Shown piece after piece: positions 2,389 to 64,000 of a DNA stretch of 64,000 bases. The stretch covers positions 1 to 64,000 of the forward strand of contig JADIIU010000058.1 of NCBI GenBank assembly GCA_027603945.1, in the 5' to 3' direction. The DNA comes from Terramyces sp. JEL0728 (lineage: Eukaryota; Chytridiomycota; Chytridiomycetes; Rhizophydiales; Terramycetaceae). Every line of letters begins with the position of its first letter. The stretch's first letter is position 1. Made by a program: the position numbers and the translations under genes. The notes below the pieces were generated by a model that saw nothing but the letters and a program-made list of their open reading frames with translations, had not been told where the DNA came from and ran no database searches.

Positions 2389-5300
2389 TTATTCAATTTT
2401 CAAATTGCTCTTCTTTGGAATTAATACCCCACCAACCAATAGATGTGATGCAGAAAACAAAAGAATTTGGAATACGATAAACGAACTAGACATTACAAAA
2501 TGTGAAATTGTCGTGCCGATTTCCAACCAACTTCCAGAGTCTGTAACCAAAAAGAAAAAGTTGAGCGTCATAATATCTGTCGTAGAAAGGACCAATAAGA
2601 ACAACGAGAATGGCGGAAGTTCAAGACAGCGCGAAAGTAACGACAGAGCAGAGGAAAGCAAAAAGAATGGAATGAGAAGCTTCAGGATCAGCAAAGCCGC
2701 CATCAAGAATGGGTTAAAAAGAGTGGTAAATCTATAAACGGAGGAAATTGAAAATGAACCCAGCGATGCCATACTAAAATTAGAATATGAATACTTTCCA
2801 GTTCCAAAGAAGGCCATGTTGATGAAATACAAGAAAAAACTAGCGATTCGCATATCATTTGGGCTTAGACTGCGATTCTTAGTCTCGCCTCCAGTTGAAT
2901 TTTCCTGACAATTAAATCAACGTTACAGTATAAGCTATTCCGTTAAATTCTTTCGTGTCGTAAAAGTACAATTGCTGTTCGATCATCAGCCAAGTAAAAA
3001 CTGTCATTGAGTAGAAAAAGTAGAATAGGGTTTCGTAACTATGTTAAATACATGAAAACCTAATGCTTAGTAAAATAAATATTGGTGCAAATGATAAATA
3101 GATGATGACCAATCTGTAGAGATAGTGCTGCTTTTGAGATACTCTGTCAAATATCGGAATCAAGATACTCGAGGCTATGTAAGAAATAACATACCCAAAA
3201 TAATCCAGCTCGTAACAGCATTGACTACTGGTAGCCCTTTTTTGGCTTCCAAAGAAACAGAGGTGTGGTATGTAACAATCAAGGAAGTCAAAATAATGAG
3301 TATTTGGAACCACACAATTTTAAGTTGTGCAGCTGTGGCTCTATTGCCATAGTCAAAAGGTAACGATGCATTAATAAAGCGAGGAATTACTAATAACGCC
3401 AAGAGTGCCGATGCAATGATGAAATATCCACCAAGTAAACTAGATCAGAGAACATTTACATGAAGGTTCGATTTTCTTCTACCTCAACAGGCAGCAGAGT
3501 GAAAATACAGGTAGTGGAACACAGGAGCCTCCAAAAGTTGATCAAATGGGTATGCCGATTTCTAAATTCCAACTTCATTGAAAGTGGCCACAAAAATCCC
3601 ATCAAAAGCAAATAAAAAGTCAACAGCTCCCTGTAAAAATATGAAAGAACTAGTAGCTCTAAAGATGCCAGATACATAATAGAATATCCATAAGATTTAA
3701 TCCTGGATTGATCGAAAACGCCTGCGACTAAAGTATGTATGTAGTCCAACTTTTTTACGATTTCGCCCCAAAAGTACACTGGAAAAACAAGATACGCGTA
3801 GTAGGATATTGAGGACTCTTTATAGAACAAAATTCCAGAGAATGCTGCAAAAATCACCAGTTGTGCAAGTTGTACATGTAATACTTTTGGTGGATGGCCT
3901 GTTGCTTTCAAGTCCCTGCCAGGATTGGCATAGTACGTTTCAGTAATGAATAAAACAGAATAGATTATCCATCCCAAGTACCCTAAAGACACAATCGAAC
4001 GCAAAAGGAGCCAATCATATCTAAATTAGCAATTCATTACGTTTGGTAGTATCGCAAACCTTCAATGGATAAATCAATCAAAGTAGAACTGAGCGCTTCT
4101 GCTTTGTTGTAGTTTCCTGCTGCAATGTCTTTTTCGATTGTACTCAAGATATCTGTATAATTTACCAAAGGCTTGTATGGCTTGAGAACTAATTCAGTTT
4201 TTTCTTTCTTTGAAGCTTTGATCAAATATTGTGCAAGAATCCCCTTGGAATTAGCAAACAGGGCTTCCGCTTTGTACTTTTCAGAGTTTTTCAAATACGG
4301 TATTGGAAGCTTCCCAACAGAATTCTTTGGAAATGGCACGCCAATTAGTGTTGACTATGTAAGTGCTGAACTACCATTAAAGGAGCGATATCAGCCTGAT
4401 TCACGTCATTTCTTTGCAGCGAATCTAGTCTCCAGCTAACTGAAAAACTATCATGTCCAGATTTATCCTGCTTATCCGGCTTGCTTACCCCAGCACCCCA
4501 TGCAATTAACGGCGTCTCTGTATTTTGAGGGTTTCCATCTCCATGGTTCCCTTACTTTAGTGTTTGAATACCTCTATTGCTCATACCATGATCCGATGTT
4601 ACAACATATGCAGTTTTGCCATCCCCGTAAAAGTTTTCAACTAGTTTTTCGACTTTTCTTAAACCGCTATCCACGATTCCAATGTTCGACAAGTAATTTT
4701 CAGAATAAGGCTTAAAGCCATGTCCATTTGTGTCCAGCCCTAGCAAATGTAAAAAGAATACAATTCTCTCTCCTCGTAACATTTTTTCCAGCGTTGCATT
4801 TGACTTTGCATGATTGAAGAGAAGTTCAAAGTGGTCAAATACCCAAGTGTCCAACTTGCTGGCATCTGTTGTTAGATCATTCGACCTTCATCTGCAAAGT
4901 CTTCATCTTCTGCTTCGTACATAAACATCTCCACCTTATTTGGATCGGATGCACCGTATGCAAACATTGGCAATATATCCGGAGAGCCGAAAGACCATGT
5001 ATGTCTACTTTGATTGAAAACAGAATCAAAATTTACTGGGTTTGTCTTCCAGCCTGATATCAGCTGAAATTAACCTTTTGTGACTGCAGACACATCTTCA
5101 TAGAATCCAGCAATTAGCGCTACATGTCCTGGCCTGCTTTCAGTTGGGACTCTTGTGTGTGAAATGCCCCACCGCCCTTCAGCAAACACCTTTTCTTTCA
5201 GAAATGGTGCTCTTTCAAGTGCATTTTCATATAGCTTGTCTGCTCGAAGTCCATCCGCTGTATATTAAAAAATTCGTACCGACAGCCAACACCAATCTCT

Positions 5301-5462
5301 GTGCGGGAGCTGGTGTTGGAGGTGGTACTTCATCCATTCCATGTACAAGCGGTGATCTGAAATAAATATCAAAAATAGATCCAATGTAGATTATATGGAA
5401 TATTACACTGCGATTTAAGTTGTAAACTACCCTAGTAAAAGCACCTTGGCGACGGGATGCAT
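2389..5462 (-). CDS. MCD4: GPI ethanolamine phosphate transferase 1 (PIG-N/Mcd4)
   Basis: Adds ethanolamine phosphate to the first mannose of GPI precursors in the ER. Twelve exons splice to 947 aa, close to human PIGN. Introns: 5408-5430, 5258-5279, 5054-5074, 4866-4885, 4551-4571, 4355-4374, 4021-4040, 3440-3459, 3175-3194, 3039-3059, 2905-2926 (20-23 nt each). The start at 5462 gives a signal-anchor followed by the family landmark [13 protein letters not shown]. The luminal phosphodiesterase domain (about 15-300) has [30 protein letters not shown] and the metal-site motifs DTNGHGF and SDHGM. From about residue 435 there are many hydrophobic segments, including [17 protein letters not shown] and [15 protein letters not shown] as in PIGN. 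Without the introns the locus looks shattered, but nothing is missing. It is divergent from the CEP19-like gene with 374 bp between starts. Confidence 0.95.
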
Positions 5463-5836
5463 TTTCAAAAAAGTTATTTTTAAGCAGATTGCAACGGCAC
5501 TATATCATTAGCAGGAAATTATTTCAAGTACAGTGATAAACTTTTAACGGCGGTCAGAGCAACTGTAATAGCGTGTAACAATTCGCCTTGGTGCTTAAAA
5601 TTCTTGTTGATTTTAAAATACATTCTCAACAATTCAAAGACATTAATCCAAAGTGATAATGAATTAAATTCAGCTGCCTAAACTTTTTTCAATATTTTAA
5701 CGCGTCAAATGGCAGCTAAAGACAGGCCATTACAGATTGGATATACGTTTGAACCGCCATGTATATACTTGATATATTATTCAGATTTTCACCACGGTTG
5801 AACTATGATTAATAAATAGAAAAACGCTATCGAAAA
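5463..5836. promoter_or_regulatory. divergent promoter region between PIGN (-) and CEP19-like gene (+)
   Basis: This 374-bp gap separates the start codons of two divergently transcribed genes and must hold both promoters. It is AT-rich, with ATATATT-like runs near 5765-5780. I see no clear operator, repeat or RNA gene. Its role is inferred from gene orientation alone. Confidence 0.5.
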
Positions 5837-62635: not shown

Positions 62636-63708
62636 TACCTCATAATATAATCCTTAAACTTTGAATTTAACTGCGAAATCAATTGTTCACTAGAAATAGG
62701 GTTCGAATCGGCATCGCTGGGTAGACTTATCTGCGCCAAGTATGATACGAGGCGAGATTTAAAAAAGTTTACTTTCGCGATTCACACAATAGGCATGACG
62801 TGATCAAGTATGATGATGGAGGCCATTCAATTTTTAACACGCTACGATATATTGAGACGAGTAAATGACTACACCTTCAATTCATCCTCAGTTCAGATCA
62901 AAAGCCGTGTGTAATTTGAATTGCAAGCATTGCTCAACTTCAATTTGCTCCAGAGGAATGAAAGCGATTCTCTTGGGAGACACTAGAGTAATTAGTATTT
63001 AATGCAGGTCGAACTATTTTCCACCGATATACCTCCCTACATGTAATACCATATTGATCGTAAGGGTAGAATTGGTTGATAAGGATTATATGACGAGGAA
63101 TTGCCGGTGTAGAATCAGGGACGTGGCATGTCTTAGATGGTACTAGCGCTCTAACAAAGCGGAAATGTCATTGGGTATCATGTTACCCAACCATGCGAGC
63201 GATGTCTGGAATCTTGCAATAATGGACATTTTTGGATGTTTTTATCGGATGGAGTTTCGGCACAAGAACGTCTGGACAAGCTTGGTAAACTCCTAATTTA
63301 CCCCAGGCCAAAAGCAACTGTTGTGGGTACATTTAGCCTCTAAGGAATATAAAGAAAATGGAAATATAGATAATTACAATTTGACTTCTCGATAGCTATA
63401 CCAATAAAATTAAATTCTGTACTCAATTTAGGCTGTTTTAGGAAATTGATCTCGTGCTCCTTTTTGACTTTGTGCTCAGCAATCGACAAAGAATTCTGCA
63501 AGTGCCCTTGGTTGATGGAATAACCTCGGGATGCAAATTAAATTGCACTGCGCATTAACATAAAAATTATACAAATAGCAGCAGGCGAAAAGTCGTTTGG
63601 CAGTTGTCTGTGAACGGTGGTACAAAGAAAGGTCCGCAAAGCCCTCGTGCCTAAATTGCCACAGGCACAGAGCTTAAAAAAGAACCCCAATTAAAAAAAG
63701 TAAACCTC
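62636..63708. other. 1.07-kb intergenic stretch
   Basis: No open frame here has a supportable domain on either strand. A T-loop-like GGTTCGAATC at 62700-62709 lacks the matching stem for a tRNA. The right end presumably holds the promoter of the gene starting at 63709. Confidence 0.45.
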
Positions 63709-64000
63709 ATGGACCTCAGAATAAAGTTGAATACCAGTATTACTCGCTCAAAGCACATTGAAAAAGCACTTGAATTCGACACTATTCACCATGACGAACC
63801 AATAGACAGCAGCACAAAATCACTTGGCAGGAAGAAAATTGCTGAGAGATCATTGTCGGAAACCTCTCTAAAGCCAAAGCAAATTACTACGGTAGGCTTA
63901 TATTAATTGTAGACCGTCGGAACCAAAGGCTTGAAAACCTTGCTATTTGCCTTCAAGGATAAAATTAATTGGGGATACAAGCTTACAAAGGGAAGAAAGG
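63709..64000 (+). CDS. 5' part of an unknown gene, leaving the window
   Basis: A start at 63709 (MDLRIKLNTSITRSK) opens an exon to 63891, followed by a 21-nt intron (63892-63912), then an exon that runs off the window end. The visible ~90 residues are Ser/Lys/Thr-rich, with TKGLKTLLFAFKDKINWGY after the splice. The intron matches all others in length, GT..AG ends and TTAATT branch-like motif, which supports a real gene. No family is recognised from this fragment. Confidence 0.6.

Follow-up and report, generated by a model that had tools for sequence, protein, structure and literature searches.

The stretch examined here, called the window below, is the first 64,000 nucleotides (nt) of contig JADIIU010000058.1 of Terramyces sp. 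JEL0728, and its subject is the introns of about 20 nt that interrupt its protein-coding genes. The source assembly is a draft of 15.0 Mb in 231 contigs. Terramyces and Boothiomyces, with which it is compared below, both belong to the Terramycetaceae (Rhizophydiales, Chytridiomycota); the organism is a chytrid, and an earlier note, made from the letters alone, was right to take it for a flagellated fungus. That note had described introns in the window as uniformly ultrashort, and the analysis confirms this observation and extends it past the window.

The gene for PIGN/Mcd4 (GPI ethanolamine phosphate transferase 1) lies on the minus strand at 2389-5337 and encodes 906 amino acids (aa) once 11 introns of 20-22 nt are removed. 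These are intron 1 at 5258-5279 (22 nt), intron 2 at 5054-5074 (21 nt), intron 3 at 4866-4885 (20 nt), intron 4 at 4551-4571 (21 nt), intron 5 at 4355-4374 (20 nt), intron 6 at 4021-4040 (20 nt), intron 7 at 3440-3459 (20 nt), intron 8 at 3175-3194 (20 nt), intron 9 at 3039-3059 (21 nt), intron 10 at 2905-2926 (22 nt) and intron 11 at 2774-2794 (21 nt), the last of which is stop-free if retained. The model was built before the database record was seen, and it matches the GenBank protein from the same contig (P0241) with 100% identity along all 906 aa.

A chitin synthase gene is transcribed rightwards at 7803-10369 and yields a protein of 806 aa when seven introns are taken out. Of these, the first two are taken up below; the other five are at 8304-8323 (20 nt), 8619-8638 (20 nt, at a join within 10 protein letters not shown here), 8781-8802 (22 nt, at the join G/GACGEIKA), 8992-9011 (20 nt) and 9510-9530 (21 nt). 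The model agrees with the GenBank protein P0121 (99% identity) except at the N-terminus and at 9510-9530, an in-frame, stop-free segment whose residues are absent from P0121 and from three aligned orthologues, and which was recognized as an intron from these.

The glycogen phosphorylase gene is on the plus strand at 58092-60803 (the end being computed from the model) and encodes 854 aa with seven introns of 20-22 nt removed. Intron 1 (58618-58638, 21 nt) has a GTT donor and its removal restores LDYPAWGYG, and removal of intron 2 (59290-59310, 21 nt) restores a block of 14 protein letters (not shown); both are stop-free if retained. Intron 3 (59895-59916, 22 nt) falls at a join within 11 protein letters (not shown), followed by intron 4 (60188-60207, 20 nt), intron 5 (60526-60545, 20 nt), intron 6 (60594-60615, 22 nt) and intron 7 (60722-60742, 21 nt). 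The spliced product aligns with residues 33-849 of the yeast enzyme and with five chytrid proteins. A further intron of 19 nt lies at 23875-23893 on the minus strand, at the join KKG/LTGVDLG in the gene that the earlier note called MLYCD, and all four joins named there, this one together with those at phosphorylase intron 3 and at chitin synthase 8619-8638 and 8781-8802, hold.

The gene for the core spliceosomal protein Prp8 shows the same structure. It has six introns, and residues 6-2311 of its 2329 aa match human Prp8 residues 27-2323 in one stretch, with no gap at the six joins in the parts shown of this alignment and of a second one with the C-terminal 870 residues (positions counted by hand). 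The four conserved genes together carry 31 introns (phosphorylase 7, chitin synthase 7, PIGN 11, Prp8 6), all of 19-23 nt: one of 19 nt, 12 of 20 nt, 11 of 21 nt, six of 22 nt and one of 23 nt. Support from outside, either from relatives or from GenBank models, is available for 29 of the 31; once spliced, the products align with yeast phosphorylase, with chitin synthase 1 and with human Prp8. Eleven of the introns are divisible by three, of which seven contain an in-frame stop codon and four are stop-free if retained; an in-frame stop is present in 15 of the 20 that are not divisible by three. Among introns divisible by three from the gene finder described below, 36 of 38 contain a stop, although this set is biased against stop-free ones.

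Gene models from Boothiomyces bear on individual sites. At the position of the chitin synthase intron 8781-8802, the GenBank model of B. macroporosus has seven extra residues, GKFKLTE, and at the position of PIGN intron 1 (5258-5279) the model of Boothiomyces sp. JEL0838 has seven extra residues, GTYNFTI. Back-read by hand, both peptides permit a 21-nt intron with GT and AG ends and a branch adenine at position 15, although the codons do not force the GT or the AG. We infer that Boothiomyces probably has introns at these same two sites, which its gene models left in. The remaining aligned intron sites of the Boothiomyces chitin synthase and PIGN models have no such insertion; an intron there is either taken out or lacking altogether. 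From the JEL0838 phosphorylase model (P0001) exactly the 48-nt exon that separates introns 5 and 6 is missing, as though a pair of tiny introns had been merged into one; four other aligned chytrids keep this exon. The three Boothiomyces models (P0001, P0122 and P0242) hold between them one skipped 48-nt exon and two apparent seven-residue read-throughs. In a relative from a metagenome (P0037, 638 aa, 84% identity) phosphorylase intron sites 1-5 are without insertion, and it would be without those introns provided that its gene caller ignores splicing; its final residues, SSCNFS, fit a read-in to an intron at site 6. Single introns may therefore vary in presence among relatives.

The lengths of candidate introns were scanned on both strands of a 264-kb sample of the 15-Mb genome, made up of 21 sources (the 64-kb window and 20 further stretches, each of ten kb). 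The pattern GTA...YTAAY...AG was counted for all lengths between 12 and 120 nt against the expectation of a second-order Markov model. A peak is seen at 19-22 nt, with 84 occurrences at 19 nt (7.2 expected), 96 at 20 nt (9.2 expected), 44 at 21 nt (10 expected) and 25 at 22 nt (6.5 expected), flanked by 6 at 18 nt (9.5 expected), 14 at 23 nt (9 expected) and 3 at 24 nt (8.5 expected). A count over the entire genome gives 1547 occurrences of one 20-nt sub-pattern and 98 of its reversed form. The same sub-pattern occurs 36 times in the 264-kb sample, where the core motif is present 237 times (about 23 expected), and by hand count 13 of the 31 checked introns fit the core motif. Very roughly, and by extrapolation only, the genome would contain about 9,000 to 20,000 introns. 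As sampled in 264 kb of the 15 Mb, intron lengths are confined to a few nucleotides at or below about 25 nt.

The position of the branch point is equally restricted. A model-free scan of the same sample, using no gene finder and requiring an AG 4-7 nt past the branch adenine, finds the adenine at position 14 in 128 cases (8.3 expected), at 15 in 91 (5.7 expected) and at 16 in 18 (8.7 expected), and there is no surplus at 12, 13, 17 or 18 (3 against 7.3 expected at 13, and 4 against 5.3 at 17). The branch adenine lies at a near-fixed distance from the 5' splice site, as is characteristic of ultrashort-intron genomes. From it to the final G are mostly 5 or 6 nt, leaving hardly any space for a pyrimidine tract. 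Two candidate second classes were considered and rejected in the course of these counts: GTA-branch pairs with an AG 8-30 nt off (384 against 108), in which true sites meet chance AGs, and branch-AG pairs with a GTA 17-60 nt upstream (394 against 269), in which the GTAs are chance occurrences, as the masked scan described below bears out.

The scans for length, branch position and masked pairs use no gene models, whereas the anatomical figures that follow stem from motif-trained models. Of 280 introns from the gene finder, 91% begin with GTA as the donor, followed by A at +4 (57%), T at +5 (44%) and T at +6 (53%), with G at +5 in just 16%; the exon ends before the donor in A (50%), A (59%) and G (52%). 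Positions +4 to +10 are 40% T, compared with 27% in the flanking exons (258 introns, 21 sources). The branch adenine is at 14-16 in 207 of 219 motif-bearing modelled introns, and 159 of 168 introns with YTAAY end at the first AG that begins 2 nt or more past the branch adenine. GT-AG ends together with a branch motif shortly upstream of the AG are features of U2-type introns.

A gene finder whose length prior is flat between 12 and 200 nt, but whose motif scores were trained on segments of 19-22 nt, places 162 of 205 introns at 19-23 nt, with no more than two introns at any other length. When the length prior is learned, 316 of 323 introns are of 19-23 nt (in the 21 sources plus short loci of U2AF65 and SF1 profile matches, two of which overlap). 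Within the window this finder gives 57 of 58 introns in that range, the single exception, of 192 nt, being read as a merger of two genes; it misses 11 introns (phosphorylase 4, chitin synthase 1 and PIGN 6), and the window total is 68. This is near the 72 introns in 17 genes that the earlier note had reported, although neither its list nor its count of genes was reproduced; its description of uniformly ultrashort introns is borne out by the peak at 19-22 nt and by four genes that need nothing longer than 23 nt.

Among modelled introns, those of at least 22 nt are more frequent in the window (16 of 53) than outside it (12 of 205 in the 20 ten-kb stretches), and the spread in intron length between sources is above expectation, with 12 of 2000 permutations reaching the observed value in a post hoc comparison. 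The excess in the window may be a gene-type or local effect. We note that two protein kinase genes on the minus strand, at 15246-16322 and 26353-27393 and about 10 kb apart, are both modelled as intronless, and that the VPS8 gene (18823-23213, minus strand), with its beta-propeller and central TPR regions matched, has five predicted introns of 19-21 nt.

The genome encodes U2-type splicing components, including a U2 small nuclear RNA (snRNA) with a GUAGUA branch-binding site and the core protein Prp8. The U2 snRNA matches the whole Rfam model at 140 bits, and its GTAGTA site is canonical. Prp8 is full length and ordinary-looking. Still unspliced, U2AF65 matches TIGR01642 at 251.7 bits, below the model cut-off of 310.3, and its spliced model matches human U2AF65 across both tandem RNA recognition motifs. 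SF1 matches PF16275 above the cut-off in two pieces and, on our own reading of its sequence, appears to carry a ULM-like KTRW motif and a KH region. The earlier note had suggested that a survey of splicing genes might show oddities; U2, Prp8, U2AF65 and SF1 look ordinary and give no sign of an unusual spliceosome, while U1, U4 and U6 were not found in searches that had no working control. As far as these components go, the presence of U2AF65, SF1 and Prp8 argues against a reduced spliceosome of the mikrocytid or microsporidian type. A search for RED_N gave no match in the genome, likewise with no working control, so that its absence is not shown.

Two Rfam matches to U6 reach about 27 bits, short of the cut-off (44), and were dismissed as chance; they are located in near-identical stretches of two contigs. 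Of two U6 patterns allowing up to three mismatches, one gave a single chance-like match within sequence unlike U6 and the other gave none, and a 106-nt U6 query found no match in the genome. The two near-identical stretches (L013 1441-1680 and L014 1441-1680, on contigs C199 and C111) differ by one base in length and are probably copies of a repeat.

We consider it very probable that, genome-wide in Terramyces sp. JEL0728, U2-type spliceosomal introns have been reduced nearly to a minimal unit. What is directly shown is how the lengths are distributed, which ends the segments have, where the branch motif lies and that conserved proteins are restored. The proposal of spliceosomal introns of about 20 nt is supported by the GT-AG ends, the branch motif at a fixed place, the canonical U2 snRNA and the agreement with orthologues and with the PIGN model. 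The unit would consist of a GTA donor, a T-rich spacer, a YTAAY branch site with its adenine at 14 or 15, and an AG 5-6 nt further. Ordinary U2-type splicing could act on it by intron definition, with U1 and then U6 reading GUA and little beyond, SF1 and U2 recognizing YTAAY, with which U2 would pair, and the first AG after the branch being chosen as acceptor. The spacing of 14 or 15 may be set by a steric minimum or optimum between the 5' splice site and the branch, to which deletion bias would press introns down; an optimum is suggested because the spacing has sharp edges on both sides.

Several observations weigh against this interpretation. The first two chitin synthase introns (7847-7866 and 7888-7910) are unsupported and conflict with P0121, and the YTNAY motif is absent from five of the 31 checked introns. 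A motif-free finder, using GT-AG alone, places just nine of 33 window introns at 19-23 nt and is too weak; as it misses the peak, the case is carried by the motif and homology evidence. U1, U4 and U6 snRNAs were not found in searches that score only some candidates and had no fungal positive control, and a U2-type spliceosome requires all three; loss from the assembly, divergence, or introns within the U6 gene may be the reason. Removal of the segments from mRNA is what we infer from the proteins, and the evidence for the steric ruler is the spacing itself.

It is on this last step that the most serious alternative bears. The introns would be spliceosomal, but the tight spacing would be a mutational end-point of deletion bias against a length floor, and longer introns would be spliced equally well. 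We regard this as a substantial possibility, a little short of an even chance. It is consistent with the ordinary appearance of the core proteins tested, and deletion bias against a functional floor has been proposed for other lineages (PMC10245619). However, the upper edge of the branch distribution is as sharp as the lower, as the count at position 17 shows (4 against 5.3 expected), and a floor alone would need a very strong deletion bias to produce it. A stronger form of the steric ruler, which we consider doubtful, is that the spliceosome of the Terramycetaceae is obligately short, with a rigid ruler of 14-15 nt from 5' splice site to branch and introns of at least 24 nt unusable. U1 and U6 would have changed to read little beyond GUA, and hence been missed by standard models, and U2AF65 and SF1 would be retained despite the lack of space for a pyrimidine tract past the branch; U2AF65 would then either read the T-rich spacer upstream or act without reading the intron.

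An improbable alternative is that intron sizes are mixed, with longer introns present but missed by both the motif and the gene finder. The coding model is weak, 43 of the 205 flat-prior introns fall outside 19-23 nt, and the length scan has mild surpluses at 31 nt (20 against 8.5), 34 nt (17 against 8.2) and 35 nt (18 against 8.8), as well as a minor one at 14 nt (12 against 5.2). Unmasked pairs at 36-120 nt are also 1.3-1.5-fold in surplus overall, but decoy starts give a surplus too. When segments with intron geometry (a GT donor and a branch adenine at 14-16) were removed before longer pairs were counted, GTA-YTAAY pairs numbered 101 at 24-35 nt (102 expected), 195 at 36-60 nt (246 expected) and 455 at 61-120 nt (560 expected). 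Counts at or below expectation indicate that there is no longer intron class with the same motifs, although a class with other motifs would evade the scans. Moreover, the four conserved genes need nothing longer than 23 nt, and no outside length has more than two predicted introns.

That assembly or sequencing indels break the reading frames, and that the joins are cosmetic, was one of the refutations proposed in the earlier note, and can be set aside almost entirely, draft assembly of 231 contigs notwithstanding: indels would not be 19-23 nt long with GT, a branch adenine at 14 or 15 and AG, and the GenBank models from the same contig agree for PIGN and, past the N-terminus, for chitin synthase, though they share the underlying assembly. 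The four stop-free introns divisible by three are all supported and all of 21 nt, and their retention would leave an open frame with seven residues that are missing from orthologues; since no frame needs mending there, frame repair fails as an explanation. Equally negligible is the idea that the segments are kept in mRNA and bypassed in translation, for which there is a parallel in the short segments skipped in some yeast mitochondria, or are cut from DNA like the internal eliminated sequences of ciliates, as neither predicts the marks of splicing found here (GT-AG ends, a consistently spaced branch motif, canonical U2, Prp8, U2AF65 and SF1).

Spliceosomal introns compressed to a minimal unit, the reading preferred here, have counterparts in print among heterotrichs, mikrocytids, chlorarachniophyte nucleomorphs and Paramecium (PMC10245619, PMC5014332, PMC9505925, PMC12862383). 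The introns of Stentor coeruleus, of 15-16 nt, are similar in their firmly conserved GUA, their AU-richness and a branch adenine at one of two fixed positions, the 10th in 15-nt and the 11th in 16-nt introns, with 5 nt from branch to end, and both U2AF2 and U2AF1 are found there (PMC9505925). In the same account Stentor is described as lacking a strong branch motif, whereas Terramyces is a fungus with introns of 19-23 nt, branch positions 14 and 15 and a clear YTAAY. As the branch position is two-valued in both, with 5 nt to the end in Stentor, the donor-to-branch part seems to be what differs. Nucleomorph introns of chlorarachniophytes, of 18-21 nt, occupy a nearly identical narrow range in the accounts cited (PMC10245619, PMC5014332), but nucleomorphs are remnant endosymbiont nuclei, while the Terramyces genome is of 15 Mb with U2AF65, SF1 and Prp8.

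Mikrocytid introns, of 16-17 nt, are likewise all tiny and uniform, as reported in the cited source (PMC10245619), although Mikrocytos mackini is described with 224 introns of highly conserved sequence and a reduced spliceosome, in contrast to thousands (by extrapolation) with degenerate donors in Terramyces. Paramecium, with a median of 24-25 nt, is similarly intron-rich and ultrashort (PMC5014332, PMC12862383), but the introns of P. bursaria are given there as spanning 15-100 nt, a wider range than in Terramyces. Compared with the Paramecium type, stop-free introns divisible by three are not absolutely banned in Terramyces (four of 11 without a stop, in a set of few introns). Among other fungi, short introns are exemplified by Cryptococcus neoformans, which is reported to have many per genome with a mean of 63 bp (PMC8476143), three times longer than those of Terramyces. 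For human cells, SPF45 is described as taking the place of U2AF at some short introns whose pyrimidine tracts are truncated (PMC8363638).

Among the matches listed, we found no report of such introns in chytrids in the open-access literature. The data are public, and GenBank models of the same strain (PIGN and chitin synthase) already include introns of this kind. Terramyces adds a fungus to the ultrashort-intron genomes, and the trait seems to be undescribed.

Terramyces is culturable and saprotrophic. The ultrashort-intron genomes we found in print are those of ciliates, endosymbiont nuclei and reduced parasites, among which a 15-Mb chytrid with normal-looking U2AF65, SF1, Prp8 and U2 would stand apart. 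For users of public data there is a warning that some Terramycetaceae gene models are wrong at short exons and at in-frame introns. If the interpretation is true, neither strong genome reduction nor the loss of U2AF65, SF1, Prp8 or U2 is needed for introns to become ultrashort, and comparison of Terramyces and Boothiomyces with other Rhizophydiales could reveal what sets the minimal distance between the 5' splice site and the branch.

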